DNA of 64,000 nt from Paramacrobiotus metropolitanus (taxonomy: Eukaryota; Tardigrada; Eutardigrada; Parachela; Macrobiotidae): positions 1 to 64,000 of the forward strand of contig NW_026570415.1 in assembly GCF_019649055.1 (NCBI RefSeq). Direction: 5' to 3'. Position numbers and translations under genes: made by a program. Below the pieces are notes generated by a model. The model saw only the letters and a program-made list of their open reading frames with translations. It was not told the DNA's origin and did no database searches. Each line of letters starts with the position of its first letter. Within the stretch, counting starts at the first letter, position 1. Positions 20,286 through 63,987 of this stretch are shown piece after piece.

Positions 20286-20575
20286 CCTAACAGCGTGGAG
20301 TTCTGGGCGACGACGGGATAGTGCGGCGCGGACTCGTGGTAGACGTGGCCGACCACGGATTATTCGTCGATCTGCTCTGTCCTAATCGGCGCCGTGAGTA
20401 CACTCCTTCGAACGGCTCTTCCCGGCCCAGACCAACTCTTTGGAGCTTTTCGACACGCGTTACGAAGAGTTTTCCACTACTCCCGTGGAAGTCCTCGTGC
20501 CGGAGACAGCGCAGGGTCCCTGGGTGTGGCTCGCGGGTGAGGTACCGGCAGTTCCGTTCGTTGTACCGACAGACA
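20286..20575 (+). pseudogene. Tudor-like exon 1 fragment of an F-box family copy
   Basis: The sequence aacagcgtggagttctgggc begins a match to the start of exon 1 of the gene at 16884. It encodes N-S-V, then in a shifted frame R-R-G-L-V-V-D-V-A-D-H-G-L-F-V-D-L-L, R-R-R-E-Y, and in a further frame V-E-V-L-V-P-E-T with P-W-V-W-L-A-G-E. Homology ends near 20575 in the middle of the second Tudor-like unit. No KH0, F-box or tail follows. It is a truncated copy with at least two frame changes. An ATG at the expected start is missing. Confidence 0.75.
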
Positions 20576-32009: not shown

Positions 32010-32161
32010 TGTGACGGCATGTACTTTGTATATGACTTCAAGTGCTTAGCAACGTTAACCTTTATGAATATTTACATTCCTGACATACAGTCTACAGTTA
32101 GTCAGTTCTCTGGTTGGCTCGCGGAATTAAATAAAATATACGTATTTGGTAATACGTGACA
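32010..32161 (+). repeat. 5' LTR, 152 bp
   Basis: Begins TGTGACGGCATG and ends AATACGTGACA. Contains an aataaa-type signal (taaataaaatata). Identical to the 3' LTR. Confidence 0.95.
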
Positions 32162-32202
32162 TTCTGGCGTGAAGGATTGTTTTCTAACTCATACGCGCAG
32201 CC

Positions 32203-33273
32203 ATGCCAAACAGTACTACCTCTGCACCTGCTTCTGCACCCTCCAAAGATGATAGCGGATCTGGTCTTCTCCGTTTTGAGCCAGCGACCATGACTTGGCG
32301 CAGCTGGCAGTTTCGTTATCGCAATTACATCAAATTGCGAAAGGTCACGGACACCGACGAACAAAAGGCCATTCTGCTTGACGCTCTTGGGGTTGAAGCG
32401 ATGGAAATGTTACATTCGATGTGTTTGCCTCGCGATCCTGATGATTATACAAATGCACAAATCGTAGACAAACTCGAGCAGGCATACGTCAGGAAGACTA
32501 ATGCCACCGTCGAATGGGCGAATTACTTCCGACTGCAGCAGGACGCTGGAGAAACTCTCCTTGATTTCTCCAACAAACTCCGCCGCAAAGCGATAAACTG
32601 CAATTTCCCTTCTGATGTCCTCGAAAAAAACTTGTCATCGACATTTCTAAACGGGGTCACTAATGACGCAACTCGACAGCACCTTATGACCAAGGATTTT
32701 ACGACCTTGGAGAAAGCGCTGGAATTGGCTCAACAATACGAGCTTGCGAAGAGCACGAAGCGCGGTCAGCCCGCCGCTGAAGTAGCCAGGATCGAAGGCG
32801 CGCCGAGAAGAGGCGGAGGCAACCGTGCGCGGGGAAACAGACAAGGAGCTGGACGCGGCAGAGGCAACGCGCCAGTTCGAAGCGGACCCAGAGGTGACAC
32901 ACCGTGCGCCGGATGCGGAGCTAACCACGCGCGCACAGAGTGTTGGGCAAAGGACGCTGTGTGCCGGAATTGCGGGAAGAAAGGGCACATCGTCAAAGTA
33001 TGCCGCAGCAGCAAGCAACCGCCACAGCGAGGCCGAGACGGACGGCGAACCATGATGGTCGAAGAAGAGTTCGACGTCATGTCGGTTGACGCCGCGATTG
33101 GGCAATCCATTTACGTGCCAGTGCAGTTGAACGGCACCCCAGTGTCGACGGTGCTCGATACAGGCTCCGGTGTCACCATAATCACGGTGGAGACATGGAG
33201 ACAGATTTGTTCACCAAACTGGCCCCATACACGCATCCACTGCGTAGCTTCACCGGCCATACCTTACGTGTGA
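32203..33273 (+). CDS. gag: Gag polyprotein with zinc knuckles and protease start
   Basis: ORF of 356 codons from an ATG 41 nt after the 5' LTR. The first ~200 residues are a capsid-like helical region (W-R-S-W-Q-F-R-Y-R-N-Y, then F-S-N-K-L-R-R-K-A). A basic Arg/Gly-rich stretch follows (N-R-A-R-G-N-R-Q). Two zinc-knuckle-like motifs come next: C-A-G-C-G-A-N-H-A-R-T-E-C and C-R-N-C-G-K-K-G-H-I-V-K-V-C. The aspartic protease core D-T-G-S-G lies near the end. The ORF overlaps pol by about 80 nt in another frame, as expected where this family uses -1 ribosomal frameshifting. Confidence 0.9.
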   Translation: MPNSTTSAPASAPSKDDSGSGLLRFEPATMTWRSWQFRYRNYIKLRKVTDTDEQKAILLDALGVEAMEMLHSMCLPRDPDDYTNAQIVDKLEQAYVRKTNATVEWANYFRLQQDAGETLLDFSNKLRRKAINCNFPSDVLEKNLSSTFLNGVTNDATRQHLMTKDFTTLEKALELAQQYELAKSTKRGQPAAEVARIEGAPRRGGGNRARGNRQGAGRGRGNAPVRSGPRGDTPCAGCGANHARTECWAKDAVCRNCGKKGHIVKVCRSSKQPPQRGRDGRRTMMVEEEFDVMSVDAAIGQSIYVPVQLNGTPVSTVLDTGSGVTIITVETWRQICSPNWPHTRIHCVASPAIPYV

Positions 33274-36200
33274 TGGGAACAGCCACGGTAAAGGTCACAC
33301 ACGCGCAGACCCGGAAATCGCTGCCGATAGTGGTGGTTGCGCAAGGTGGCAACGTCCTTGGACGCGATTGGATACAGGCACTGGATCTGAGCCGGCTGAG
33401 CCTCAAGGATCTGCAGGCGTCATCCATCCGGCTGGTCGCCGGTGACCTCAAGCTGGACGAAGTCCTGAACCGCCACCGAGCCGTTTTTCGCGATGAATTG
33501 GGCCATTGCAAGCAGTACAAAGCGCATTTGTACTTGAAGCAAAACGCGAAGCCGGTGTTCTGTAGAGCCAGAACTGTGCCTTTCGCGTTCCGCGATGCGG
33601 TAGAGAAGGACCTGGACAGACTGGTGGAACGCGGTATCCTGACACCAGTCGATCATGCCGAGTGGGCAGCTCCGATCGTCGGTACTCAGAAGCGGGGTGG
33701 CGATATCCGGACATGTGCGGACCTCAGCACAGGCCTGAACGACTCCCTGGATGTCCAGAAGTACCCCCTCCCGACACCAGACGAGTTGTTCGCGAAACTC
33801 AATGGTGGCTGCAAATTTAGTACACTCGACCTGGCCGAAGCATACGCCCAAATCGAGCTGGACGAGGAGAGCAAGCAGCTGGTTGTGATCAACACACACA
33901 AAGGCCTGTTTCGCTACAACCGTCTCCCGTTTGGCGTGGCCAGCGGTCCGAGCATTTTTCAGCAGATCATCGAGCGGATCCTGCAGGGCTGTGAAGGTGT
34001 CGCTGTCTACTTAGATGACATTATTGTCACCGGTGCGACGGAAGAAGAACACCTCCGCAACCTCGAAAAAGTCCTGCAACGGCTCGAAGAGCACGGCCTG
34101 ACGCTCAAGCAGACCAAATGCCGGTTCCTGCAAGAATCGGTGGAGTACCTTGGCTTTGTGGTGGACAGCCGCGGCCGACACATATCGCGCGACCGCGCCA
34201 AAGCGCTGCTGGATATGGACGAACCAAGGAACGTCAGCGAGCTACGCGCCTTCCTTGGCATGGTGAATCACTACGGGAAGTTCCTTCCCGATGTATCGAC
34301 GAAGTGTAATGTCTACCACAATCTCCTGAAGACCGGAGTGACATGGGACTGGTCAAAGGAATGTGCGCGTCAGTTCCGAGAACTGAAAGAGGACATCGTC
34401 CGGGCGACATTCCTGGTGCACTTCAACCCGGAAATGCCACTGGTGCTGGCTGCCGACGCCTCACAATATGGCCTGGGTGCTGTCCTGTGCCACCGGTTCC
34501 CCGACGGGACAGAGCGACCGATTGCCCACGCGTCGAAGAGTCTCAGTGCGGCCGAAAAGAATTATGGCCAAATAGAGAAAGAAGCTTTGGCGCTGGTGTT
34601 TGGTTGCAAGAAATTTCACCAGTATATCGCTGGGAGGGAGTTTACGCTGCTGACAGACCATAAGCCGCTTCTCAGCGTGTTCGGCAGCCGGAAGGGCGTT
34701 CCCGTCGTAACCGCCAACCGCCTACAGCGATGGGCTCTGCTGCTCATGGGATACAGTTTCTCCATCGAGTACCGCAGGACGGAGGATTTCGGCCAAGCCG
34801 ATGGGTTGAGCCGCCTGCCACTGCATTCTACGCAGCTGGAAGGCATATCCGGTCTCGGCATGGACAGTGTCGTGAGTGCCGTGCATAGCAACAACGCCAA
34901 CCACCTGCCGCTGTCAGTCACAGCGATCGCGGAGGAGACGCTGGTCGACCCGGAGCTCCGAGAAGTAAGCCGTTACATCCTAAACGGCTGGCCTAGCACC
35001 ACTGCCGACAGCCTCCGACCGTACAAACGGCTGGAGCACGAACTGGTCATGGTGAACGGCTGTGTTTGTTGGGGTCACCGGACTGTGATTCCTGACAAGT
35101 TCCGCCAGCAGGTGCTGACATATTTGCACGAAGCCCACATGGGGGCTGGGAAGATGAAAGCGGAAGCCCGAGGCTACTGTTGGTGGCCGCAGATGGACCG
35201 AGAAATTGAGCAGGTCACCAAAGACTGCCGTACTTGCGCGGAGCGAGCACACGACACCGCGAAGGTCCCGCTGGCCCAGTGGGAAGTTCCCGACGCGCCG
35301 TGGAAACGCGTACATATGGACTTCGCAGGCCCGTACCATGGAACCATGCTGTTCGTGGTAGTGGACGCCATGTCAAAGTGGCCGGAAGTCATTTCCATGA
35401 AGCACGCCACGACCGAGACTGTCATCGATGCTCTGCTCACGATGTTCAGTCGCTACGGAGCATTTGCAGAAGCCGTTTCCGACAACGGTACGCAATTTAC
35501 TTCACAGCAGTTCGCGGATTTCTGTAACCAGTTTGGGATTAAGCATATCCGAACGCCACCGGGTCACCCGCAGTCCAACGGGCAAGCAGAGGGTTACGTA
35601 CAGACCGTGAAAGAGGGAATCGCAAAGCTGATGGAAGACGGTAAAACACTTCCGGTTGCCCTGCGTCAGTTTCTCTGGCGGTATCGCAGCGTTCCACACG
35701 CCACAACGGGCAAGTCGCCGGCCGAGCTGTTTATGGGCCGCAAGATGCGTTCAACGTTGGACCTGCTGATTCCCGTCATGATGACCACAGCTGAACGGAA
35801 CCGTGAGCGATACCGCAGGAATTTTGATAAGCGGACAGTTCCGAAAAGCTTTCAGCCTGGTCAGCTGGTTCTCGTTCGAGATTTCCGCCCCAGTCGCGAC
35901 GTTGACTGGGTCAGTGGAAAACTGATCAAGCGGGACGGCGCCCGAATCTGGGAGGTTTCCGTCAACGGAACAGTCTGGCGCCGACACTATAATCAAATTC
36001 GACCGCGATACTGGCTGGAACCAGATGAAGTGAAACTTGGCAGTACACTGCCAGAAACGCCAGTTGTCGACGCACAGAACAATTCTGCAGCACGGATGGC
36101 GGATGAAACACCGAAACAGGAAGCGCGCCCTGCTAATGAAACGGTGAAACCTCCGCCAGATAACGTCAAAGAGACAACAACAGCGAAAAATGAGGCAGCG

Positions 36201-36326
36201 GTAGCTCAACAGCCAACCAAACCGAAAAAGGTCAAGCCGCCGCAGCCAGTTGAAAATTTACGTAGAACGGAGCGAACCATAGTGAAACCGGATCGATTAA
36301 TAGCGGATCCTAAATTTGGTTCTTAA
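33195..36326 (+). CDS. pol: Pol: RT, RNase H, integrase
   Basis: ORF of 1043 codons. In order: the protease remainder; reverse transcriptase with the Y-L-D-D active site (V-A-V-Y-L-D-D-I-I-V-T-G) at about residue 275; RNase H (L-V-L-A-A-D-A-S-Q-Y-G-L-G-A, L-T-D-H-K-P-L); integrase with an HHCC zinc site ending in C-R-T-C, a catalytic core starting V-H-M-D-F-A-G-P, then V-S-D-N-G-T-Q-F-T-S and G-Q-A-E-G-Y; and a basic tail. The ORF looks open throughout. It would act in virus-like particles in the cytoplasm and then in the nucleus. Confidence 0.93.
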   Translation: METDLFTKLAPYTHPLRSFTGHTLRVMGTATVKVTHAQTRKSLPIVVVAQGGNVLGRDWIQALDLSRLSLKDLQASSIRLVAGDLKLDEVLNRHRAVFRDELGHCKQYKAHLYLKQNAKPVFCRARTVPFAFRDAVEKDLDRLVERGILTPVDHAEWAAPIVGTQKRGGDIRTCADLSTGLNDSLDVQKYPLPTPDELFAKLNGGCKFSTLDLAEAYAQIELDEESKQLVVINTHKGLFRYNRLPFGVASGPSIFQQIIERILQGCEGVAVYLDDIIVTGATEEEHLRNLEKVLQRLEEHGLTLKQTKCRFLQESVEYLGFVVDSRGRHISRDRAKALLDMDEPRNVSELRAFLGMVNHYGKFLPDVSTKCNVYHNLLKTGVTWDWSKECARQFRELKEDIVRATFLVHFNPEMPLVLAADASQYGLGAVLCHRFPDGTERPIAHASKSLSAAEKNYGQIEKEALALVFGCKKFHQYIAGREFTLLTDHKPLLSVFGSRKGVPVVTANRLQRWALLLMGYSFSIEYRRTEDFGQADGLSRLPLHSTQLEGISGLGMDSVVSAVHSNNANHLPLSVTAIAEETLVDPELREVSRYILNGWPSTTADSLRPYKRLEHELVMVNGCVCWGHRTVIPDKFRQQVLTYLHEAHMGAGKMKAEARGYCWWPQMDREIEQVTKDCRTCAERAHDTAKVPLAQWEVPDAPWKRVHMDFAGPYHGTMLFVVVDAMSKWPEVISMKHATTETVIDALLTMFSRYGAFAEAVSDNGTQFTSQQFADFCNQFGIKHIRTPPGHPQSNGQAEGYVQTVKEGIAKLMEDGKTLPVALRQFLWRYRSVPHATTGKSPAELFMGRKMRSTLDLLIPVMMTTAERNRERYRRNFDKRTVPKSFQPGQLVLVRDFRPSRDVDWVSGKLIKRDGARIWEVSVNGTVWRRHYNQIRPRYWLEPDEVKLGSTLPETPVVDAQNNSAARMADETPKQEARPANETVKPPPDNVKETTTAKNEAAVAQQPTKPKKVKPPQPVENLRRTERTIVKPDRLIADPKFGS

Positions 36327-36369
36327 CGGTGTGCTTGAGTGTGTTTAACTACAAACACACTGGGGAAGG

Positions 36370-36521
36370 TGTGACGGCATGTACTTTGTATATGACTTCA
36401 AGTGCTTAGCAACGTTAACCTTTATGAATATTTACATTCCTGACATACAGTCTACAGTTAGTCAGTTCTCTGGTTGGCTCGCGGAATTAAATAAAATATA
36501 CGTATTTGGTAATACGTGACA
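36370..36521 (+). repeat. 3' LTR, 152 bp
   Basis: Identical to the copy at 32010-32161. Preceded by the purine tract tggggaagg. Confidence 0.95.
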
Positions 36522-37002
36522 CCAAGTCCACGATGCACTGCTTTAACACGCCTGGCGTGACGGAATCGGAGTAGTGGCAGTCTTGTCGATATCCACGAAC
36601 GCGCTGGATGGGGACGATGTCGGTGTGCGGCATGCCCGTGTCGGGACTCCGCCAGCGGACAATGGCCGCGTTGAAATACTCCGTTGTGAAGCCGCGTCCA
36701 ATTTTAATTAATTCACCTGCCACCCACACCCAGGGACCCGCTGGCGTCTCGGGCACTAGAACCTTCCCCGGGATGACAGAACGGTGAGGAGCATTACTGA
36801 GCTCTGTAAACCAGCAAGGAGGCGTTTGAACGCGATCTGCAAAATAGACACGCTCGAACGGCGCATATTCACGACGCCGCCTGGGACAGCGCAGATCGAT
36901 GATGAGCCCATCCTTCGCTAGGCCCACCACCTGCCCATAGCGTATTTGCTGATCACTGTCCCGCAAGAACACGGCGTTGAATTTAGACATTCCGCTGGGC
37001 AT

Positions 37003-38085
37003 GGTTGACGACGTTCTGCACGAAATGGGATACACTGAAGATGGCTACAGCGGATTACAGCGAACTAACTAACAATCATTCAAACCACCGGTGATAGAAA
37101 GATCAGAATCGCAATAAGTTTGGTAGAAAAGTGAATGATAATTTCATAGTACACACGTTATATGAGTGAGAAACAGTTGAGTAAAATGAACCGCTGCACT
37201 AAATGTGAGGCCGCCAGTTACGGTCTTTGAATCTTAAAGACGTACTGCAGAAATGGTGACTGGCGAAGTACTTCGCCGGACAACAATATCGGTTCAGTAC
37301 CTCTCCGTCGTTTAACAGCGCAGCCGGCTTTAGAGGTGGCATCTTGCCAGTACTATTTTCCTCAGTGAGAAGCAGCTTAAGCGTCCATCCTACATATGAA
37401 GTGTAGTGCATGAACGTACTCGAACAAATGATGTACGAGTATCTTGTGAATCAAGATGATGTCCTATGGATAATTCGCCGTAGCAGCGAAACAGCAATGT
37501 ACAGGGTTGTTGCTATATTTAGCATTTTGTTGTCTGGTTGGCACCGTAGCGAGCATCGTTCATACAGAATATTTCGCCGCAACATATACGACCTGTAGTG
37601 CAGAGGTTTTGCGAGAAGAAGCCTTACTTTCGAATCATCACTGAAAAGAGGGAACAGCTAGCACCGGAACTGAATCCACGGCTGGGTATAACCGCAGTAG
37701 CCCACTGATGGCGTCATACGGAAGCAGGGTGGCCGTAGCAGATCCTGTCGATATTTTATACAAGAAACAGCCTCGGCTTCGCCTCCGCGTTTCTTGGGTT
37801 CTAAACTCCTTGGCCGGTTTACGGATTGTTAACTTAGAACGGATAAATCTGAAGAGCCCGATAACAAAAATTTTATAAAAAAATGGATGTTTTGGTTTCG
37901 TGCAGTCGAACGCAATTACTTTGACTTTACAGATCATTTTTTTTTAAATTTTCTTAGCGAAAACCCATCCGAATCAAATCACCCACGAGAGTATCACATT
38001 ACAAACTAAAAGGACGCTAAGACTGGACAGTGGTGCTAGATAGGTCACCCATTAAGAACTTAGCAGGCCCTGCTCTATTTTGCTC
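37003..38085. other. Spacer with a short fold-back repeat
   Basis: Upstream flank of the split F-box gene. A roughly 36-bp sequence at 37762-37797 (caagaaacagcctcggcttc... ending gtttcttg) has self-complementary ends and recurs inverted at about 60787-60822. Otherwise unremarkable. Confidence 0.5.
37762..37797. repeat. Dispersed fold-back repeat (copy 1)
   Basis: Ends CAAGAAAC and GTTTCTTG are inverted repeats around a core with cctcggcttcgcctccgc. A second copy lies on the opposite strand at about 60787-60822 with few differences. Confidence 0.7.
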
Positions 38086-42311: not shown

Positions 42312-44930
42312 TACAATTTCTGTATACATATGCAGTCACATTTCGGTAAATTAGGTTTCCTCCTTATTTTTGCAATCGCAAAGAATGCTATGTTAAATGT
42401 TTCGGTAATTCTGTGAATGTCCCCCTACCGGATATCGTATACCGGCCATCAGGGCATCGCTCTGGCCTTCCATAGTACTGAGACAGATAATGTTCCACAC
42501 CAGCGGAAATTCTCTCCGCAGTATTAATTGTCCACGACATCGGTTCCCATCCGTTTGGGCAGGCGAACGGCGCTATGTGCGAGCACTGCATGTGCCCAAT
42601 CAAGAAATATATAGTTGTCGCATCTATGCGCACAAACAACCAGTCCTTCATCTGATACTCTCTCCGTTTTCCCCTCGGAACACCATATCCAGCATCCGCG
42701 TAAGACGATATTCGTCAATATTCAACAGTTCCAAGGTCTTGGCAGGGATGATCACTTTCTTTAGGCGGAGCGACTCGTCTACTTCGTCCGTTGGAAACCG
42801 CGGGATGCTTTCAATATCGACCATTTGCCAGCGATGTACAATGTGAAACTCTTGCCCGTGATCCAAAGAATTCACAACGACGCAACTGAGTAGCAGATTC
42901 GCCTCCATACTGTTCTGCACCAGTTTCCCTGGGCGGTATACATAGGGACCAGTGGGAGTGTTACGCAGTGCAACATACACCGGTTTGTCCCTCATTATTT
43001 TATGGAGAAGATCGTACGGTTTCCAAGGAAAGGTCTGCGCTTTCTTAACAGGAACCCAGCACGGCGGAATATCGGCACAATCGAAATCTATAAAGAGACG
43101 ATAGCCGTCCGCGTCTTGACATGTATCTTCGTCCGTGTCTTGTACGAATCCCAGGTAGAGTTCGTCGGCAATCAAATTAACCATCACCACATTGCCGAGG
43201 TTAAAAAGTCCACGACGTCGTCCCGTCGAGAAATACGCGTTAAGAGCAGGCTGAAACGGCATTTGTGGATTGAATGGGGCACTTGCAAAGTGTGCGAATT
43301 TGCAGGATTAACTTTCTGGATGCAGGAGCCCAAGTTTAAGTGCACTGCGCTGAGTTGAAATAGCACACTGAGCACAGTACGAAGCAGGCATTCTAAACGA
43401 TCATCCAGCAACAGAAAATCAATAGGCTGTTTCGTCTAGACTCTTCTTCAAAACACAGTTGGTAGTGCTGACTGCACCGTATGTGCTTGCACAGACGGTG
43501 ACGTGTGGGGAGGGGTACACATCGGATCTCTATACGAACGTCTGGACTCCTGTACGCCTTTACCTACACATCGGGAGTTATCTAGCCTTCTCTATCATTG
43601 ATTCATTACTACTTGTACATAGCGATGTATATGATGCGGTCATAACGCAAACTCGCAAAGTCTATATAAAATAAGCTACGGTTTCTCCTAATATCGGATA
43701 ACAGTCGCATTTAGTCTTGCTCTTTTTGATTTCCTTGAGTTGTGAAATGCGTTGTGAGTTAATAAAAGGCAGCATCTTCCGAGTTGATTGGCATTCATAG
43801 TCGCCCTTACGGATTATAGCGTAATTGGCACGGTTTGATCTTGCCTTAACTGGTTACTCTCGCCTGACCCACGCAGTAAACGCAGTACCCGCTACCGGAA
43901 GTTAGTATTACGCTCGTGTTGCTGAAGGGTACCGGCTCAGGAATTCCTGACCGTTCTACCCATCATAGTCCGCATCCTTGAGAATCACCGTAACACAGTT
44001 GAGATAAGAGCGTTCTACTGATTGAGTCGTGGCTGAGGAAGTGGATAAAGCTCTACCTCGCCGTAGCTAGTCTTTATTCTACCACTACTACGGAATACTC
44101 TGCACAGACAAAGCATAGCTCTGAAACGCTTTTAATAATATTATGAGTTGCAGTCGCATAACAATATATGTACACTTGCAGCAACACTGTTACACCGCAA
44201 ACGTGCGTATAGTTTGTGCTGATACCGATAAAGGTATTTCTACGCTCGTCGCTCTGTACGTTATACCTGTAAACATCCATCGGACTTGCTCGAATCGAAC
44301 AGATAACCAGTATTGCACCGAACAATATTAAAATAAAAACGAATAAATAAAACTTACAAAGCAAACGAGTTTGTCCTTACAGTTCAGAAAAATGCAGAGC
44401 GTTCTAATAACCAGGAACACGGCAAATAAAAAGTACGATAATTATTACTAATCATATTAGCCTACCTGTGCATGCAAATCCAGAGAGAGAAACTCCGTTC
44501 CGTCTAATACAAAAGTCAGATACCGTCGTACCTTGACATGGCAGCGTAAAATGATGACCAAATTCTAATAAACTGCTTGCGAAAAACATCTGACTGCGAG
44601 ATTTTTGCCGTAACCTTTGATGTAGGCACTCTTTCGGAATTAATCTAGAGGCGAAGTAGTTTTGGCAAAACTGAGAAAGAATCTACAAGTTAGCTTGCCT
44701 CATTAACGACTCCAAAGGAGCGCTTTCGCGGGAGCATTCTAAATGGCTGCAACACGTTTTCAATAACTTTCCGGTGTTTTCGCAATAGTCTTGCTTTAAG
44801 CAGTTCTGAAGTACCGTTAGCGCATTACACTGTATGCAACCGGAAGGCAGTTGAGTGCATCCTGAACGTGCAAAGCGTAGTGCGTGCATCCCTGCGTAGT
44901 GCGACTAGCGAACTCTGTAGTGCAGTGCAT

Positions 44931-48435: not shown

Positions 48436-50576
48436 TCAGTCGTCCAGATCCCGCCATTCCCCGATGGTAGCGCCGGTTCCCGATGGAAGTGCCACCTGCT
48501 GCAGAAAGTGCAGCGTCGTACGCGACAGCTTCACCAACTGCCAACCTTGCAGTCCGTCATGGCACCATCTCTTCCCGCGGTAGTGAGTTGACGGACGCGG
48601 ATCGCTCGACTGGACAGCACACATCATCTGCCAAAAAACAACCATTAGCCCCTATCGTGATATTGCCGGGCTAATGCCTATTGGAGAATTCGTTGCCTAC
48701 TATTGTTCGACAACAATAAAGAGAATCATAGACCACATGGCTGCACGAATGCGAGCTCCAATACCGCTGGCAGATTGTCTCGGATTTGTGAAATTAAAAT
48801 AGGCTTCGTGTTGCTCTTCGTTGGTCGAGTCGTACAAATTTTACGACCATGACGAAGGCAACCTACGAAATCCTTACCTTGCACACGGCATCGTAGAATG
48901 GCTCGTTCTCATCCTTACCGGCCACCCTTTCGGACCACTGGACAAGCACTTGCAGCTTCGCATCACTCAGCGCCGGCAACACCGCTTCGCAAGCATTCCA
49001 CAACGTGCAGCCAAAATCCCCTTTCAACTCCAGACGGGTATCCATAAACAGCATCTCCACAACAGGACCCTTTGTGCATTAGTCCATGTTGTCAGCCTTA
49101 AATGGGCAGTACCATTTAGTCGTACAGTTGACCATACGCAGCGATTCACACGGCAAAGCGCCGTAGATTCCAATGAAATCCTTCAGACGGCAATGACCAC
49201 CCTTCCGGCACGGTGTATACGGCTCCTTGTGCGATGCCTCCGTGCCGTGCAATATGCACGCGCTGCGGGAAAAAAAGTGATCGGTGGCGCGGTTGACCAG
49301 GAAGGACATCCGCCAGCCGACCAGGTACAGCGTGGTTGGACGGATGCCGGGTCGGTGCTTGGCCATGAAGGGCAGCACGTCGACAAGATGCAGCACGTCC
49401 TCAGTGCACATCTTTCCCTTTCGATCAACCAGCGCCACACGGCGCGTGCCAGGCCGGAGACACTTAAAGAGCGCCGTCGAGGAGAGGAAATGCCAGTGTC
49501 GTTTAGAATACCATTTGCAACGGACGAAGCGCTCAAGGACGATGCAGGCAGCGAGCACCGGCGAATCCAGGATCAGGTTCCAGGTGGCGCAGACGGCACG
49601 CAGCCGCGTCTGCGTCACCGTGTCCAACTGGCAAAATGCTTCCCGCCACAGTTCCGTCGGCAACGCACGATAGTCTTCCTTTTCAACCGCCTCTAACGCG
49701 CTTCTGCGCAAATAGTTAGATCGTCTCACTTCTCTTAATATGTCCTGAAAATTGCACAACAACGCACCTTTTCAAGTACGGATTCGTTTAGTTTCGTAGG
49801 AGCATCGTTTTTATAATTACCGAAAGGAATAGATCCATAAAGTCGTAGCGCATGCCGCGATCGTCCGCTTTGTAAGTGCAGACCAACTGGTCAGCGACGC
49901 AATCGACCACGCAAACATCCGACCAGGGTTTATACGGCTCACAATTAAACCAAAGCTAAATGAGTCCTTGTACTTCCTCCGCTGACAGCTGACGCAGCTG
50001 TTCCTTCAACGGCTTACCGCGACGGATGAACTCGCCGGAAGTCATGGGTCGGTGCAGTGCAGTGTAGATAGTGGGAGATGCCGCGCGTCGTTTGAGCTCA
50101 CCTGTCACCATCGCATGCAGTTGATCCCGTCCCGGAAGCATATAATGCTTATCGAGGTAATCCTGAAATAGCGGGCAGACGATGCGCTCGATGGGGACTA
50201 CTTCGGTGCAGGAAAGTCCCGTCACAGCATCCTGCCACTGGACAACCGGGGCTTCATAGAGCGCGCAACGCACACGGCGGCCGTGACAGGATATTTCCCC
50301 CGGGACCCACATCCACGGAGCATAGGGCCTCTCCCGCACGAGGACAAGCACGGGAATGCTTGGCAATTGGGATGCGTAGAGTGCGGCTAGAAGAACTCCG
50401 GGAAGAACGCGCGGCAAGAAGCAGTTTTCGATCAAGTAACATTCGCGACGCCGGCCGGGACACAGCAGATCGACCGAGAGCCCTGTCTCATGGACGCCCA
50501 CCAGGCGGCCGAAGCGCAGTCGGCCGTCGCGGCCCAGAACATGCACGCTATTTTTCTGTTGAAACCCTGCGCACAT
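48436..50576 (-). pseudogene. FMRP-N-like/F-box/LRR gene, frame preserved but with two in-frame stops
   Basis: Minus-strand exons are 50576-49821 (252 codons), 49744-48878 (289) and 48627-48436 (64), all phase 0 with GT-AG borders (donors gtaatt, gtaagg). Together they span 605 codons without any frameshift. Exon 1 (M-C-A-G-F-Q-Q-K-N-S-V-H-V-L-G) has both Tudor-like units (R-R-R-E-C-Y-L-I; P-W-M-W-V-P-G-E, E-V-V-P-I-E-R-I) and the KH0-like part (L-R-Q-L-S-A-E-E-V-Q-G-L-I). A TAG stands at 49958-49956, where the paralog at 63541 has CAG (Q). V-V-D-C-V-A-D-Q-L-V-C follows in frame. Exon 2 has the F-box (LPTELWREAFCQLDTVTQTR), the LRR-like region, a TAA at 49081-49079, then G-C-T-L-W-N-A-C-E-A. 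Exon 3 has the S-S-D-P-R-P-S-T-H-Y-R-G-K-R-W tail and a longer acidic end. Either the gene is freshly dead or the stops are bypassed. Confidence 0.85.
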
Positions 50577-51307: not shown

Positions 51308-52982
51308 AACGGGATCTGCATGGCGTAGACGTACTGGGCCACGACGACATTCTAGGTTACGGGCACGTCGTGTACGTAGGCGAATTCGGGCTTTTCGTCG
51401 ACCTCCTCGGTCCGCAGCCTACCCCGAATTTATCCCCTTTGGCCGCGCCTTCCTGATCGATTATCATCACCGGGGAGCTTTCCAGCTTCACACCAGATTT
51501 CCATCCATTGTTCCTGGTACAAGGAGGTGGTGGTCCGCTGGGGACTAGCCATGGAACACACGGATGTCGTCCCGTTGGCGCGGGTTCGCGGAGACAGCCT
51601 GTTGACGGGGTACTGCCCCAATGCGTGAGGCAGTCGATGTTTGTTAGACGCTGTCTACCGTTGCCGGATAACACTTCCCAGGAGGCGGTATCCGACGCGC
51701 TCGAGCAGCGAAACCGTGGAGCCATCCATTCGCCTGCGCAAGCCGCCAGCGTGGGTGTGGTGAACGGTTGTGTCGTCTACATTCAGCGCCGATCCGACAC
51801 CGACAAAGAACTCGTAAGCAAATAACTCCGGATTGTTGAATTCTGTAATTGTGCAACACGTTGGTTAATTATAACGCTATTTTACAGGAAGCTCTATACA
51901 TCTTCCACCGCAAGTTTGGCGACTACACTTCCCAGATGCCAGACAAGACGCCGGTCATCCCACCAAAGAGCAAAACTTCGGCACTTTACGAGGTCGTCCC
52001 GTTGCCAGTGGAGATTTATCTGGAAGTCTTCTCGCATTTGGACACTTTAACGCAGACGAAACTGCGCGCTGTGTGCGTGACGTGGAACGCCATTGCGGAT
52101 TCGCCATCCTTAACTGCCACTCTCGTTCTCGACAGCGCGGCCGTTGGCCCGATCCGTGCACACAAGGAATCGTGGCTGACCTGTTCTCTCCTTGCTCCCG
52201 TCTACAAACGCTTCTCATCGTCCACGCAACGCATTGTCCTCACTGACGGCGGACGCTGCCTCGAAGGAAGCCACGTCATTAAAGTGCTGGACATGGTCAA
52301 ATTTAGTTCGCCACCTAATTTCGGAATCCCTTTGAAAAGGGTTCATTTGCATCGATTAGTGTTCAGTCTGATGGTCACTACCCGCTACGACACGGTGACA
52401 TCCGAGGGCGCACCATCCGTCTGTCTGCTGCATGAGCCGCGTGATCCGTCTCGCAACTTCAGCATCAATCTGGCTGGTTTCATCAGCGCCTGCAGCAATC
52501 TCCGGTATGGAAGTCTCCAGTTGACGCATTGCTCCATCACGTTGGAGTACAAGATTTCGTCCATGCCGAGAGACAGCGAACTGAAGATTCACGTTCCGCT
52601 TAATGTCAGGCAGCGTATTCCGGGAGCAGGCGACGTTGACTGCGCGGTGTGGAGGGCGCTGGAGGCGGGGCTACCCCGCCCACCGGTGAGCAGCTGTACT
52701 CTCTGTCCGCGCTTTTGACAGCAGCTACAGCGGAGCCTTTAACGACGAGACTTCCTGCAGGTCCTCTGCAAGGTGAGTCAGATCGACGTTGACAAACCGG
52801 GAATAACTGAGTTTAAGTGTCGGCTTTCGCAGGTGTTGTGTGCTCTGCAGTCGGCCGATCCGCGTCCCTCGCTGCACTTCCGCGGGAAGCAGTGGTGTGT
52901 GGAGGGTGTCAAGAACTTTCAGATTGAGAAACTGTCGCTGCAATTCTTCCTCCAGCTGGCGGTGTGCTGGGAGCAGTGGTGA
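51308..52982 (+). pseudogene. FMRP-N-like/F-box/LRR copy, several lesions
   Basis: Closest to the intact gene at 61313. Exon 1 runs from about 51308 to 51813 and is heavily broken. G-V-D-V-L-G-H-D-D-I and G-L-F-V-D-L-L-G are in one frame, E-F-I-P-F-G-R in another, M-E-H-T-D-V-V-P-L-A in another, and G-V-V-N-G-C-V-V-Y-I-Q-R-R (KH0-like) in another. The start-codon region has lost bases. Exon 2 (51888-52772) is open from the helix (EALYIFHRKFGDYTSQM) through the F-box (LPVEIYLEVFSHLDT) and LRR-like region. Near 52683 it changes frame and near 52750 it changes back, leaving stops between. Exon 3 (52833-52982) has S-A-D-P-R-P-S-L-H-F-R-G-K-Q-W. Introns are 74 and 60 nt. The uneven decay, exon 1 worst, suggests the F-box half lost constraint later. 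Confidence 0.85.
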
Positions 52983-53970: not shown

Positions 53971-54942
53971 TCAAAGAGGGTAGGCCTGGATGCCGCGGAT
54001 GGGTACCGTGTTTCGTACGTAACGGGTGTAGCAGTTACTTCGCCATCGCCCCGCTTCCTGTAAGCGCTGATGGGAAGTGCCATTTGCCGCTGCGGCGCTT
54101 GAGCCGCCGATGCGGAAGCTGTGGGTGCCGTATCTGTCGATGTCGGGAACTCCCGCTAGACCGGTCTTCATGGCTCTTTCGAAGGAGTGTCGGGTGACGT
54201 AACTGCCGCTCGGTAGAATGTAGAACGGGTCATTTTTGCCGGTGGTAATTCGGACGTCCATGTAGGCTTTTGTGGAGCGCACTGGGCAAACTGAGTGGCC
54301 GGTGGCGGACAGGGTGATGCGGTAGCCATGGTGAAATTGGTCCGTTTTTGAGCTGCGAATGGTGATGATTAGAGCATTTTCGTGAAGGATAACGTCGCTG
54401 AAGCGGAGAGTGGAGGCTGGGCAACACTTCCCGGTCTCGTTCGCTACCAGCTCGCTGACGCGGAAAAGGCCAAAGAAGGCAACGCAGAATGCACTCCAGT
54501 AGAGGAGCTGTTCCTGTTGCGGAAGATGCGAGTTGTGTAGTTTGTCTTTCATGGAGCGCATCAGATCCAGCGTTATTGGCAACCGCCGATCTGTACCTGG
54601 CATGTTGAGCCGCTTCAAGCCATTGACCGCCCGCGTGATGGCTGCGGTTGCTGAAGGGCGACTGATGCCTACCTCGGAGTGCGCATTGTCGATCCCGGCA
54701 AGGTAGACGATGGTGGTGGATGTTCCCAGGCCGTCGAGGTGGAGTTGCGCATTAAAGCGGAGAATAGTCTGCTCTGTCGCTGGTATAGGAGGCTCGCCGA
54801 TGGTTTTGCAAAATTGCGCAAAGCGGCTCCATCCGGTTTGGTAGGTCTTCCTGGTAGAGGCAGCGATGTGGTGAAACTGGACTGATGCGATGGTAGCGTC
54901 CAGGGCTGCCGTTAGCTGTAGCTTAGTCGCAGGCTTTCCCAC
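53971..54942 (-). CDS. Tyrosine recombinase of the DIRS-like element
   Basis: 323 codons. An N-terminal core-binding region (T-R-K-T-Y-Q-T-G-W-S-R-F, F-N-A-Q-L) is followed by the catalytic domain: F-R-V-S-E-L with the first Arg, S-S-K-T-D-Q with Lys, T-H-S-F-R-I-G-G with the H-x-x-R box, and G-R-W-R-S-N-C-Y-T-R-Y with the nucleophile Tyr. It would integrate the circular cDNA copy. It overlaps the RT ORF by 31 nt. Confidence 0.9.
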   Translation of the reverse strand: MGKPATKLQLTAALDATIASVQFHHIAASTRKTYQTGWSRFAQFCKTIGEPPIPATEQTILRFNAQLHLDGLGTSTTIVYLAGIDNAHSEVGISRPSATAAITRAVNGLKRLNMPGTDRRLPITLDLMRSMKDKLHNSHLPQQEQLLYWSAFCVAFFGLFRVSELVANETGKCCPASTLRFSDVILHENALIITIRSSKTDQFHHGYRITLSATGHSVCPVRSTKAYMDVRITTGKNDPFYILPSGSYVTRHSFERAMKTGLAGVPDIDRYGTHSFRIGGSSAAAANGTSHQRLQEAGRWRSNCYTRYVRNTVPIRGIQAYPL

Positions 54943-56582
54943 ATGTCCGGTAAGGGATCTGGTAATGTTGCGGCGCCCGGTGCAAGGCGGCGGAACCGGC
55001 TGACCTGAAAGCGTGATAGTGCGTCAGCGATTGCGTTGTCTGTCCCATTGATGTGCTTAATGGTTAACGCAAAGTTATTCTGAGCAGCAATCATGCTTAA
55101 ACGCCGCATAAGGTCGACCACGCCTGGATTGCGTGAGCCTAGCTTTTCCCACGCTTGGGAAGCCCCTAGATTGTCGCAGTGAAAAACAACGCGCCTGAGT
55201 ACGAGTTGATCTGCCCACAGCGCGACTGCGAAAAGGATGGCACACATTTCGAGATACTCTATGCATGGTGAGCAGCCCAGTATCCAATCTGGCCAGCGTG
55301 ACTGAAACCAGCGGCCTCGGAAGTAGCCGCCTATACCGAGCGTTGCGGATGCGTCGGTATAGAGGTCAATGGTGTTTGATACTGTCCATTCCGGTTCTAA
55401 AAACTTGGTCGTGCCGTTCCAGCGCGGAAGGAATTCTAACCACCATTCGACGTCTAGGCGGAAGTTGTTGTCTAACCGAATGGTCGCATTTGAGGCTTTT
55501 TTGTGACATTCATTTTCGCTGAGGAGGAAGGTCATGCGCCTTAGATAGAGCCGACCGGCGGGGACGCATTTGGTTGCAAATGCGAGAAGACCGATTAGAC
55601 TCTGCAGATCTCTGATCGTACACAAGTCGCGGTGGCGCCACTGCTCCAGAGCGCTTGTTAGCTCCTGCAGTTTGCCAGCTGGTAATGACAGAGTTTTCTT
55701 TACGGAATCGAGGACGATTCCTAAAAAAACTATTTCGGTGGATGGGCCTTCAAGCTTGTCGACTGCTAGGGGAACACCCAGCTCATCGCAAAGCTTTTGG
55801 AATGCAAGAACGAGCTCCCGACACCGCTGTATGTTCTTGCATATCAACAGGAAGTCGTCGATATAATGTAGGAGGTCAAAGTGCTTTGCGATCTGACTAA
55901 ACATCCAGTGTAATGCGTCGGAGAACTTACAGAATATCCCTGGTGCAGACCGGCAGCCGAATGGAAGGACTACGTCGTGGAAGTACTGTCCATCCAGTTG
56001 GAATCCAAGTAGGTGCCACTGGTCGCGTCTCACTGGGATTAGTCGGAAAGCGTTCTTGATATCCAGTTTTGCCATGACTGCGGCGCTTCCGTTGCGTAGA
56101 ATCAATTTGATGACGTCGTCGACCGAGCAGAACTTGAGTGGTGGGGAATCTTTGGTGATGTAGTCATTTATGCTGTCGCCGGTTGGTCGTGATAAGTCGG
56201 AGATGATTCGATGGCCGCCGCTTTTCTTGGGCCGCACTGACTGAGAGTTTGTTGTGAACGGGATAAAGGGCACAGTTAAGAATGGCCCGCGCGTGTGACC
56301 TGCTGCCACCTCTTTGGCAACCGCGGCGCGTAGGATATCGGCATGAGAGGAAGCGGAAATTGCATTAGGTGTGAATCGCGACTTGTCTGGACCACGATAC
56401 CCGATGTCGGCACCGTTAGTGAGGATGTCCAGAATAAGGTTAGCAATATTAGGGAATGGATAGTTAGTAAGGTGCCGCCGCCACGCTGAGAAGTTGAGCG
56501 GAGTGATCCGGCTTGCCGCGAATGGCGCCCCCGGATATGTCTGCTCCACCATGGCTGTGATGGTTGTGGTAGCCGTGGCCAT
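54912..56582 (-). CDS. Reverse transcriptase/RNase H of the DIRS-like element
   Basis: 556 codons. RT motifs: A-K-L-D-I-K-N-A-F-R-L-I-P-V, G-C-R-S-A-P-G-I-F and the Y-I-D-D active site (H-Y-I-D-D-F-L-L-I-C-K). The RNase H-like end has L-Y-T-D-A-S-A-T-L-G-I-G-G-Y-F, E-M-C-A-I and N-A-I-A-D-A-L-S-R. It overlaps the gag-like ORF by 119 nt in another frame. Confidence 0.9.
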   Translation of the reverse strand: MATATTTITAMVEQTYPGAPFAASRITPLNFSAWRRHLTNYPFPNIANLILDILTNGADIGYRGPDKSRFTPNAISASSHADILRAAVAKEVAAGHTRGPFLTVPFIPFTTNSQSVRPKKSGGHRIISDLSRPTGDSINDYITKDSPPLKFCSVDDVIKLILRNGSAAVMAKLDIKNAFRLIPVRRDQWHLLGFQLDGQYFHDVVLPFGCRSAPGIFCKFSDALHWMFSQIAKHFDLLHYIDDFLLICKNIQRCRELVLAFQKLCDELGVPLAVDKLEGPSTEIVFLGIVLDSVKKTLSLPAGKLQELTSALEQWRHRDLCTIRDLQSLIGLLAFATKCVPAGRLYLRRMTFLLSENECHKKASNATIRLDNNFRLDVEWWLEFLPRWNGTTKFLEPEWTVSNTIDLYTDASATLGIGGYFRGRWFQSRWPDWILGCSPCIEYLEMCAILFAVALWADQLVLRRVVFHCDNLGASQAWEKLGSRNPGVVDLMRRLSMIAAQNNFALTIKHINGTDNAIADALSRFQVSRFRRLAPGAATLPDPLPDMWESLRLSYS

Positions 56583-57705
56583 TTGAGCCGCAGATGGAGC
56601 AGGAGTGCTGCCGACCGGATGGGCATGGATTGCGGCAGCGTCCGTAGTTGAAATTACGGCAGATTTCCCCGTCTGCGGCGGTGCCGGCTCGAAAAAGCGG
56701 CTTAGGCGACGGACAGTCTCTGGCTAGGTGACCCGTGGCAGAACAGTTCCTGCATTGTGCGCGCTGATGTTTTGGGTTGCCGGTAAAGGTCACGCCTGTG
56801 GATGTGGAGGGAGTCCTGGGATTTGCTATGCATTCCTGGAAGGATTCTTCGTGTCGTCGCGTCCACACCTCGGTGTCCTCCGGGTTGTTGGCAGCATTGT
56901 TGCGAAACTGAATGTCGTATTCCAGCACGTGCTCCAATTTGTAGCCCCGTAGTGGATCCATAAGCAGCGCAATGTGGTCCAAATATCGTAAGAGTGGCTG
57001 GATGAGTTCCGGGTGGTCGATTATGCGATAACCCATGAAGACGGAGAACGCCCTCGTCCAGCTGGAGACCGACGTTATCTGCTCTTTCTTCGGGCCTGAT
57101 ACGAACGCAATCTCGCCGGTTTCGTCCTGGATCATGCGGGTGCCGGTATTTGACCTTTTTGCAGGTGCGCGATTATGTGGCAGAAGGTCGACAAAGTCCA
57201 CAAACTGCGTGTGGTCAAGGAGTTGCTCCCGCACCTTCGGACTCACTGCCGGCAGTCCGTGGGACTGCGCGGTGCAGCTGTTCGGTGGAGCTCCCAGTCG
57301 TTTAAACACGGATACTTTTGGCGGTATAACAGATTCGGTGATCACACTTTCAGCTCGCTTACCGGTATCGGTTGTGATGTGGTTGGACGCCGGGGAAAGT
57401 GAGCGTTTGGAGGAAGAGCTGTCGACCTGCAGCGCCGGCTGGCGGGAGCCATGCTGCCCAGTGGATTTCAGCTCGGTAACTTCGCGTTTCAGGTCCGCAA
57501 TTTGTGCCATTAGCTGTTCTATGACGCTGGTTGTCTGGATGGAGGATTCCGGTGGCACGACAACTCGGGAATTCACTCGTTTGCTGGGTCGCGGAGGCGA
57601 AATATCCCGAGTTCTTTTACCGGTATTTCCCGCTGTCCGGGTTCGACGGCGCGCAGCCGGACCTGATGGCTGGCCTGCATTGTTGTTTGACCTCTTTGGA
57701 GGCAT
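56464..57705 (-). CDS. gag: Gag-like protein of the DIRS-like element
   Basis: 413 codons from M-P-P-K-R-S-N-N-N. A basic N-terminus (R-R-R-T-R-T) is followed by a coiled-coil-like stretch (I-A-D-L-K-R-E-V-T-E-L-K), a conserved central region (T-S-V-S-S-W-T-R-A-F) and two or three Cys/His knuckles (C-R-N-C-S-A-T-G-H-L-A-R-D-C; C-S-I-C-G-S-N-G-H). Typical of nucleic-acid-binding first ORFs in this order. Confidence 0.85.
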   Translation of the reverse strand: MPPKRSNNNAGQPSGPAARRRTRTAGNTGKRTRDISPPRPSKRVNSRVVVPPESSIQTTSVIEQLMAQIADLKREVTELKSTGQHGSRQPALQVDSSSSKRSLSPASNHITTDTGKRAESVITESVIPPKVSVFKRLGAPPNSCTAQSHGLPAVSPKVREQLLDHTQFVDFVDLLPHNRAPAKRSNTGTRMIQDETGEIAFVSGPKKEQITSVSSWTRAFSVFMGYRIIDHPELIQPLLRYLDHIALLMDPLRGYKLEHVLEYDIQFRNNAANNPEDTEVWTRRHEESFQECIANPRTPSTSTGVTFTGNPKHQRAQCRNCSATGHLARDCPSPKPLFRAGTAADGEICRNFNYGRCRNPCPSGRQHSCSICGSNGHGYHNHHSHGGADISGGAIRGKPDHSAQLLSVAAAPY

Positions 57706-61312: not shown

Positions 61313-63129
61313 ATGCTTCAGTGGAATAGCGTGGACGTGCTTGGAGGCGATGCCATAATGCGGCTTGGGCACGTGATAGACGTGGGCGACGGCGGGCTTG
61401 TCATCGACTTCTTATGTCCCAACCGTCGACGCGAGCTGGTCCCGTTCGACCGGGTGTTCATTAGCGATCGCAACCGCTGCCTGGATGAGCAAAAGCTGGA
61501 CTCCTGTCGCCGTTTTGGCCAGTACCCGCCCGTTGACATCCTGATGCGGGAGAGCGTAGCCGAACCGTGGACCTGGTTCCCCGGGCAGATCTTCAGTTTG
61601 GTTCGCAGCATCCATTACTTTTGGTACGACGAGGTGGTGGTCCGTTGGGGTCACGCCATGGAACACACGGATGTCGTTCCACTGTGGCGAATCCGCTGGA
61701 CACTGCACGCTTATCGCCGTACCGCCTGGGCGGACCAATATGAGCACGGGACACTGCCCGAAGGCCCGGAACGAGTGACAAAGTGTACGTTTGGTAAACT
61801 GTGCTTGCGGTTGCCCGAGTCCCATTCCCCGGAGGAGGCCGCCGCCGCTCTTAAGCGGCGCAGCGTTAAACTAGAGTGTTCTGCTGCGAGAGCCGTCGGC
61901 GTGGCCGTGGTGGATGGCTGTGTGCTGTATATTCTGCGGCGACCCGTTGGCGAATCCAGAATAGCGAGTGAAACTGTATGCAAGCTAATATCTGTTTCAC
62001 TTGATTACATATAGTGCGCATCCTGCTCTCATATTTCGCCATTTTGTAGGTGGACCTTCACAGTTTCCATAACCGCCTAAGCCAGTACATTTCCTGGATG
62101 CCAGTTCCACCGTCAAACATCCAGACCGCAGCACAGGGTCATGGTGTTGTGCTACCGACTGAATTATTCACGGAACTGTTCTCGTGTCTGGATACTGTAA
62201 CGCAGACGAAGATTCGCATTGTCTGCGCAACATGTAACGCTATTCTGGAACAGCCAGTTTTAGCAGCGAACATCGTTCTCGTTAGCACGGCCAGACAGAC
62301 TGCTTCCTGGATGCCCGGTTCCCTCCTTACTCTCGTCTTCAAACGCCTTTCAGCATCCACCCAACGCATTATTCTCACGGATCGCGAAAGATGTCTCAAG
62401 GAAACCCACATCCTAAAACTGTTGGACATGATTCACTTCGTCGTCCAGCGGAATGCCAGAATCCGATTGCGAACGATTCATTTGTATGGAGTGCAGTTCA
62501 GTCTGATGATCGGTAGCCGCTCCGACACGGTCGCATCCGCTGCTGAATCATCCGCTTGTAAGCTGCACCGGCCTCGTGAACCGTCTCGCAGCTACAGCGT
62601 TAATCTCGCGGATTTCATCAGCGCCTGTAGCCACCTCCAGTGTCGTAGTATCCAGTTAACGCGGTGCACTATCAAGTTGATGTACACGGTGTCGCTGCCG
62701 AAGCGGCGGGATCGGATACTGGATGCCCCGATCCACATTACGCAGCGTCTTCCGGGCGATGGCGACGTCGGCAGCGCGGTCCTGGTAGAGCTGCTGGCGG
62801 GACTGCCAGCGATCACGGATGAGCAGTGGCAACGTTTGAACGGGATTTTCACCCAGGAATCTCCAGAAACTGTGGCCGCTGTGTGCCAGGTCAGCCAGAC
62901 CGACGGATAAACACGGCGATCCAATCCTTTTATGTTTTCTTAAGAGCACCAACAATCGTTGGTTTTTTGGTAGGTGCTGTGTGCGACGCAATCGGTTGAT
63001 CCGCGTCCTTTTCCGCCCTATCGCGGGAAGAAGTTTTGTGTGGAAGGGATGGAGAATGTGCGGCTGGAAGCACTGTCCTTGTTGGCACTCCACTCCATCT
63101 TCCAGCTGGTTACGCGCGGGATGCGTTAG
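61313..63129 (+). CDS. FMRP-N-like/F-box/LRR protein, intact three-exon reference copy
   Basis: Exons 61313-61975 (221 codons), 62050-62889 (280) and 62974-63129 (52), phase 0, introns 74 and 84 nt (donors gtatgc, gtcagc; acceptors ttttgtag, tttggtag), give 552 residues. Residues 5-50 form the first Tudor/Agenet-like unit (NSVDVLGGDAIM, G-H-V-I-D-V, R-R-R-E-L-V-P-F-D-R-V-F). Residues 68-128 form the second (P-V-D-I-L-M-R-E, P-W-T-W-F-P-G-Q, T-D-V-V-P-L-W-R-I-R-W). Residues 155-221 are KH0-like (C-T-F-G-K-L-C-L-R-L-P through V-V-D-G-C-V-L-Y-I-L). Exon 2 opens with a helix (VDLHSFHNRLSQYISWM), then the F-box at about 256-295 (LPTELFTELFSCLDT), the LRR-like region and V-L-V-E-L-L-A-G-L. Exon 3 is V-D-P-R-P-F-P-P-Y-R-G-K-K-F. 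Predicted SCF adaptor. Its targets are unknown. Confidence 0.88.
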
Positions 63130-63540: not shown

Positions 63541-63987
63541 CGCGTCGGCTGTCGGTGGAGGAAGTACGAGGTCTCATCCAGCGTTGGTTTAAATGTCAGC
63601 TATATGAGCCTTTTTGGGAAGCGTGCGTGGTGGATTGCGTCGCTGACCAGTTGGTCTGCATTTACAAGTCGTACGATCGGAGCATCAGTTACGACCATAT
63701 CAGCTACAGCCTTTTGGTAACCGTAGATCTCTTGCAAACCTAAGTACTGTAGTATATGTATTAAAATGCGCGTTTGTTGAGCGGTTTTCAGACCATAATC
63801 GGACGGTCCAACCGTAAGCGGAGGCGCGCGGCCAAAATGTACGAAGACTATAGCGTGTTGTCGACGGAACTGTGGCGGGAAGTGTTTTCCCAGTTGGACG
63901 CGCTGACGCAGACCCGGCTGCGTGGGCGTGGTCCATGAGGGTGACCAGTCAAGATGTGAACGAGCCATCTACGATGTGGTTTGCAAG
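63541..63987 (+). pseudogene. F-box family copy with most of exon 2 deleted
   Basis: 63541-63716 is the end of exon 1 (R-L-S-V-E-E-V-R-G-L-I-Q-R-W-F-K-C, V-V-D-C-V-A-D-Q-L-V-C), ending at donor gtaacc. It closely matches 49821-50005 of the minus-strand gene. Exon 2 begins at 63792 after gttttcag with a basic stretch (S-N-R-K-R-R-R-A-A-K-M) and the F-box (LSTELWREVFSQLDALTQTR). After R-L-R the LRR-like region is missing, and the sequence jumps to the last codons of exon 2 (atgtggtttgcaag), with the donor gtaagg at 63988. About 700 bp are deleted relative to the sister, and the junction changes frame. Both Tudor-like units are absent upstream. Confidence 0.8.

Follow-up and report, generated by a model that had tools for sequence, protein, structure and literature searches.

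What does a protein do that begins like FMRP and continues as an F-box protein? This question is raised by the gene at 61313-63129 (+) in the window, the stretch of 64,000 nucleotides of Paramacrobiotus metropolitanus DNA analysed here, whose contig belongs to a genome assembly of 169.8 Mb in 533 contigs (the genome searched). As read from the sequence, this gene, our target, has three exons and GT-AG introns and codes for a product of 552 aa, the C-terminus of which reads ...LCATQSVDPRPFPPYRGKKF...GMR*. Exons, donor and the 552-aa frame agree with the original prediction, and the motifs quoted there are present.

Exon 1 (61313-61975; this and all further target features are on the + strand) is an open frame of 221 aa followed by a GT donor at 61976 (GTATGC). 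It codes for an FMRP-like N-terminal module, here called the head, for which AlphaFold and VIA-align place the FMRP NTD first. Tudor/Agenet unit 1 (61325-61462, residues ~5-50) has model strands at 6-10, 16-24, 28-32, 41-44, and 48-50. Unit 2 (61529-61699, residues ~73-129) carries a W-x-W-F-P motif and has model strands at 73-78, 87-94, 107-112, 118-123, and 127-129. Both units align with FMRP. The exon 1 portion of the KH0-like segment (61784-61942, residues ~158-210) is strand-helix-strand-strand in the model and lies within the FMRP fold match. Intron 1 (61976-62049, 74 bp, GT-AG, phase 0) cuts the KH0 segment ahead of its last helix; in the L053 paralogue, a phase-0 donor candidate lies, as judged by eye, at the apparent counterpart of this intron.

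Exon 2 (62050-62889) contains the remainder of KH0, presumably with DLHSFHNRL as its helix, the F-box (62152-62277), and a C-terminal region. The Pfam F-box model scores 16.9 bits (E 0.0062) on the 280-aa exon and 19.6 bits (E 8.4e-4) on the longer open frame, in both runs lower than the Pfam cut-off of 20.5 bits, and the family F-box HMM gives 46.4 bits. Exon 3 (62974-63129) joins in frame to complete the 552 aa. It carries the family tail motif (CATQSVDPRP...GKKF), as expected of the conserved tail that had been predicted; a Pfam family was not found in it.

The original prediction had lined up exon 1 with the FMRP N-terminus. As a single sequence, the target exon 1 matched no Pfam family at E 10 and no FMRP in PDB, where its top matches were to ATP synthase subunit d and gave nothing useful. 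The full-length family profile returned F-box chains and weak unrelated rows from PDB, with FMRP absent. With a profile of 30 heads, two uL24m chains (E 0.014 and 0.017) were followed by six collinear FMRP/FXR chain sequences (E 0.033-0.14), which are all six of those found in PDB by the tardigrade's own FMRP. The trypanosome uL24m rows (E 0.014-0.017) cover a short Trp-rich patch at profile positions 55-119 and were set aside; uL24m is absent among the 50 fold matches listed for each of two models, an absence that does not exclude it. The Pfam families touched by most members were Tudor_FRX1 (3 of 30, E 0.03) and Agenet (2 of 30, E 0.053), both sub-threshold.

Comparison of profiles gave a clear match to FMRP/FXR. 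When the 30 exon-1 products were aligned by hhalign with tardigrade FMRP, human FMRP, and FXR1, the probability was 97.4 (E 1.5e-11, 133 columns); another alignment setting yielded 98.0 over 188 columns, and the lower figures are preferred. The controls used a 53-row head alignment, which scores the same as the 30-head one. Against tardigrade FMRP, human FMRP, and FXR1 its score was 78; shuffling the FMRP columns 150 times gave no score above 19.9, and shuffling the family columns 100 times gave none above 29.7. The control probabilities were 0.1 for reversed profiles and at most 1.4 (FMRP-column shuffles) and 21.6 (family-column shuffles). Hence, collinearity with FMRP in the predicted order (Tudor, Tudor, KH0) exceeds what chance would give. 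That every exon 1 in the family aligns in this way, as had been claimed, holds for the rows tested (30- and 53-row sets), which do not cover all copies. A profile of KH0 only reached a probability of 95.9 against FMRP together with F-box-linked heads and 7.3 against FMRP alone, so that by sequence the KH0 of the window family does not match FMRP alone significantly.

Divergent heads link the window family to FMRP. The tardigrade FMRP gene (G000:C5, L009) has Tudor_FRX1, KH0, and KH_1 in Pfam. Its N-terminus, used as a genome query, found 86 other places at E<=10, with ~10 expected by chance, and 21 of these 86 were also among the listed exon-1 family matches. From the 26 best, 20 loci were taken; 18 of the 20 have a same-strand downstream F-box at E<=0.01, L072 is the nineteenth at 0.02, and L056 has none. 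The best locus, L053 (C49:48500-53200), matches human FMRP (4OVA) by phmmer at E 3.4e-10, its residues 12-172 pairing with 4OVA 6-164 through Tudor1 and Tudor2 into KH0; other chains are at 0.71 or worse. A downstream open frame on the same strand contains an F-box-like domain (E 2.1e-8). With the L053 head as the genome query, the FMRP gene came back at E 9.6e-8, amid F-box-family heads.

By hhalign, the window family matches five divergent heads (L053, L055, L058, L059, and L061) with a probability of 99.4 (E 6.6e-22, 175 columns) and L053 alone with 98.2 (E 3e-14). The same five heads match FMRP/FXR with 99.1 (E 1e-18) over 169 columns, up to FMRP-profile position 180 and with KH0 included. 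Judged from these sequence comparisons, the FMRP identity of the head is settled by the divergent members. A still higher value against FMRP plus 13 heads (99.95, E 1.3e-37) is not counted as an FMRP match because the 13, drawn from the 20 loci by leaving out L056, L057, L060, L063, L066, L069, and L071, include near-family heads (L054 and L068). In an unrooted tree of 34 heads with long branches, tardigrade FMRP, human FMRP, and FXR1 group at 100/100, separate from the 31 others. Recent duplication of the FMRP gene is therefore an unlikely origin for the F-box-linked heads.

Structure prediction had been proposed as a further check, and its top match was indeed the FMRP NTD. For the AlphaFold model of the target head, VIA-align placed it at ranks 1-3, with a match to residue 217; for the model of a 547-aa paralogue, FMRP/FXR entries took ranks 1-7, with a match to model residue 241 and FMRP residue 199. 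These rankings are limited to the highest 1000 chains of Foldseek, which VIA-align re-ranks. The Tudor-like barrels of PHF1, 53BP1, ADCP1, and SGF29 likewise match single units or the pair, and on the target model the FXR1/FXR2 Tudor pairs are level with 53BP1. Such matches, together with the sub-threshold Pfam scores of single sequences, would suit a generic tandem Tudor/Agenet head of the Royal family that is equally near to 53BP1, SGF29, and plant Agenet proteins, its KH0 match being a by-product. We considered this origin, rejected it, and regard it as very unlikely. The tandem Tudor/Agenet N-terminus is assigned to FMRP/FXR by profile, phmmer, and fold matches, and the KH0 after the Tudors by fold matches and by the five divergent heads, which match through KH0.

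Recognition of methyl marks or RNPs by such a fusion had also been suggested. The pocket data for FXR Tudor 2, in the part of the source at hand, are for human FXR proteins (PMC2970552), and FMRP interactions are described in excerpt as sensitive to F32L and/or Y96L (PMC5430443). Among 66 rows, some of them near-copies, the F32 column has F in 44 and L in 16, and the Y96 column has V in 50 and I in 8; tardigrade FMRP has I there as well. The pocket alignment is possibly shifted by two, with W at the A98 column in 37 of the 66 rows. On this column count (mostly F/L at F32 and V/I at Y96), the idea of methyl-lysine reading found little support and was dropped; the head probably does not read methyl-lysine as proposed for FXR Tudor 2.

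Beyond the head, the family departs from FXR proteins. At E<=10, Pfam finds F-box in 23 of 29 members and F-box-like in 23 of 29, and five of the 29 are head-only pieces. The F-boxes of 16884, 23770, L053, L058, L059, 58257, and 30736 clear the Pfam cut-off, with 16884 clearing F-box-like and 23770 both models. With regard to leucine-rich repeats beyond the F-box, FBXL3 is the best PDB sequence match of the full profile (E 0.01; profile positions 234-339, the F-box and a short stretch beyond). No KH family was found among the 29 members scanned at E<=10 or in target exons 1, 2, and 3, and the same Pfam library finds KH_1 at 1.2e-20 in tardigrade FMRP as a positive control. The FXR C-terminal core was not found in the 29 members at E<=10, and RGG is absent from 28 proteins (26 database proteins, the target, and 16884), compared with eight motifs in tardigrade FMRP. 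As KH1, KH2, FXR core, and RGG were not found, the F-box-linked family does not consist of FXR proteins, and the predicted loss of KH1, KH2, and RGG stands.

In the scanned loci, head and F-box are mostly on different exons, as they would be if an annotation artefact had joined two neighbouring genes, one for the head and one for the F-box. This point is addressed directly by two paralogues of the window. At 16884-18527 (+), a single open frame of 547 aa takes in the head, the F-box, and the C-terminal region, and at 23770-25200 (-), head and F-box share an open frame of 476 aa. Because both frames hold both parts, the fusion is independent of splicing and gene prediction, and the claim of an F-box behind the head holds. 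The RefSeq model LOC129600767 is the gene of the 16884 frame (96% match) and includes head and F-box. By family HMMs, a downstream F-box on the same strand occurs in 29 of 30 exon-1 loci, all except L027. Family members supplied the sequences for the head HMM, which is therefore circular for their heads; the F-box HMM rests on database proteins and on F-boxes detected by Pfam. Among nine control loci fetched by FMRP-type Pfam models, two of which are the FMRP gene, only L052 has an F-box, and it sits at a family place found by the L053-head search. The artefact is refuted for single-exon members and, given the RefSeq models and the kept order, we rejected it as extremely unlikely.

The family HMMs find a head with a same-strand F-box at nine places in the window, the head being partial or in pieces at three of them (31853, 51316, and 63549). 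Further paralogues lie at 4354-5976 (+; head 4354-4994, F-box 5188-5319), 8373-9918 (-; head 9247-9900, F-box 8931-9038), and 49079-50576 (-; head 49959-50576, F-box 49535-49663). At 51316-52718 (+), the head (51316-51807) is broken into three pieces ahead of an F-box at 52002-52127. A fragment close to the window end (63549-63923, +) has a KH0-region head piece (63549-63692) and a partial F-box (63858-63923). At 20300-20553 (+), the head HMM finds a copy broken into several pieces. The broken heads at 20300-20553 and 51316-51807 are signs of family decay. A divergent protein pair without a Pfam hit is encoded at 12121-13149 (+) and 42648-43262 (-). Its residues 28-114 reach a probability of 94.8 against the alignment of FMRP plus F-box heads, 85.5 against the window family, and 2.5 against FMRP alone; by these scores, the pair is probably a further branch of the same head family.

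On the minus strand, 30733-37035 is probably one paralogue, with head HMM positions 1-162 at 37002-36547, positions 169-219 at 32011-31853, and the F-box at 31581-31450. Its coordinates suggest interruption by a retroelement whose frames lie on the opposite strand. These frames, at 32203-36326 (+), are of LTR type, with PNMA/zinc-knuckle gag-like and RT-RNaseH-integrase matches in Pfam. A second retroelement at 53971-57705 (-) has a zinc-knuckle frame, an RT frame (RVT_1 E 3e-16), and a 323-aa frame without a Pfam hit, which by its motif we take to resemble a tyrosine recombinase as in DIRS elements. Among the F-box genes also lies a frame for a BTB/POZ protein (29166-29912, +; Pfam BTB E 1.5e-22). 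BTB/POZ is another type of ubiquitin-ligase adaptor domain.

The family is large. The exon-1 genome search gave 980 first-look candidates, of which the best 150 were scored (E at most 2.7e-18), and the L053-head search gave 664, of which the best 150 were scored (E<=4.1e-4). After de-duplication, at least 293 head places on 85 contigs remain, with L053-search pieces merged and broken copies kept; since both searches give the best 150 only, the true number is probably higher. The F-box search gave 1080 candidates, and the best 150 scored were all above the Pfam cut-off, not all of them head-linked. Measured against 215 listed head places, a head lies within 3 kb upstream on the same strand for 33 of these 150 F-boxes and on the opposite strand for five.

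High copy number amid retroelements could mean that the family has multiplied out of control and has, for the most part, no defined role, with many copies decaying. The broken window copies (20300, 51316, and the apparent retroelement split at 31450-37002) and the exon-2 frames of L012, L017, and L030, which end early, agree with this explanation. However, the head is under purifying selection in close pairs, since among 300 pairs the closest 25 all have a dN/dS below 0.56 (0.08-0.55), and intact genes of 547 and 552 aa exist. We thus hold a family without a role to be highly improbable. For the C-terminal region, dN/dS is 0.42-0.67 in seven close pairs with at least 48 C-terminal codons; three pairs with only 16-17 such codons (ratios 2.48, 1.35, and 0.60) were set aside. 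It is clearly higher than that of the head in four of the seven (three among L021, L022, and L026), about equal in two, and lower in one. The picture of a constant head and a fast C-terminus is therefore weakened, being clear in four of seven pairs.

It is usually through an F-box that a receptor docks on Skp1-Cul1, part of the ubiquitin-tagging machinery of the cell. We consider it reasonably likely that these F-box proteins with an FMRP N-terminal head (Tudor-Tudor-KH0) are SCF receptors with a constant head partner and a C-terminal choice of target. What is observed for this explanation is the architecture, the FMRP collinearity, the fold match, the high copy number, and the purifying selection on the head in close pairs. 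Docking of the F-box on Skp1 would turn the protein into a substrate receptor of an SCF (Cul1) ubiquitin ligase. The partner of the head would vary little and would most plausibly be an RNP or chromatin-bound protein like those bound by the FMRP N-terminus; alternatively, the head may dimerise the receptor. The individual target would be picked by the C-terminal region. In a more specific version, which appears quite unlikely, a repertoire of several hundred SCF receptors would survey RNPs, e.g., those of retroelements or viruses; the head would be its constant part, a variable C-terminus would choose the target, and a translational regulator would thereby have given rise to surveillance at the protein level.

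The strongest rival to an SCF receptor family is a non-degradative RNP adaptor, an F-box protein that, like nematode FOG-2, would control translation as a member of an RNA-regulatory complex. FOG-2 works with an RNA-binding protein; it acts with GLD-1, which it cannot target for degradation, and binds through a diverged C-terminus, according to the sections of PMC539060 used here. FMRP itself is an RNA-binding mRNP protein whose N-terminus binds other RNP proteins, as stated in the available part of PMC5430443. Skp1 (PF01466) occurs at four genome places (G000:C6:362595, C3:3480898, C12:1452956, and C26:957519), against hundreds of F-boxes, which also fits an adaptor. Skp1 is expanded in nematodes, and the tardigrade with its four places differs. 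However, the seven F-boxes that clear the Pfam cut-off suggest that Skp1 binding is predicted to be retained, and an adaptor without degradation is, in our view, possible if unlikely.

Under the SCF receptor reading, the family would connect RNP biology with targeted protein degradation in a way that is open to testing. The family also suggests that the head can work without KH1, KH2, and RGG, and a head detached from these parts, fused to an F-box, and present at about 293 genomic places in one animal is a natural experiment on its binding partners.

To our knowledge, descriptions of the Tudor-Tudor-KH0 head exist for FMRP and its paralogues only. For an FMRP head with an F-box, or for a tardigrade F-box expansion, no description was found in the literature covered (subscription papers and preprints excluded), in line with the prediction that no family of this layout had been described. 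Three database searches gave at least 12, at least 10, and 23 hits, together at least 26 proteins, all from P. metropolitanus and listed as uncharacterized. In the two protein-database searches with 12 and 10 hits, the best 8000 candidates were scored; since shared 5-residue words are required, the protein search would overlook divergent relatives from other tardigrades.

The closest known system is the NTD of FMRP, FXR1, and FXR2 (PDB 4OVA, 4QVZ, 3KUF, and 3H8Z), which shares the Tudor1-Tudor2-KH0 order, the first fold rank, and the sequence match via L053. FMRP/FXR proteins continue with KH1, KH2, FXR core, and RGG, whereas the tardigrade family has an F-box and a C-terminal region instead and does not keep FMRP Y96. 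The tardigrade FMRP gene has the same head but differs in its kept KH0, two KH_1 stretches, weak FXR core, and eight RGG motifs. An uninterrupted frame of 630 codons (L009, G000:C5:3433332-3433961) covers its coding region and includes Tudor, KH0, KH1, and RGG motifs; hence, tardigrade FMRP has no introns in that region. A fragile-X family member has been tied to an F-box protein in SCF-Fbxo4 and Fxr1, as far as the consulted part of PMC5688124 goes; there, Fxr1 is the substrate, whereas in the tardigrade the F-box protein itself carries the FMRP-type head. Domain capture by F-box genes is documented in PMC12062965, the available text of which does not contain the words tudor, agenet, or fmr. 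The nematode F-box expansions (FTH/DUF38, including FOG-2, and Mariner-HTH) are likewise large lineage-specific families with an extra domain. They carry FTH/DUF38 or a transposase HTH as the second domain, whereas the tardigrade family carries the FMRP head. The tardigrade family is thus an expansion of the nematode-like kind, built on an FMRP head joined to an F-box, a combination for which we found no published description.
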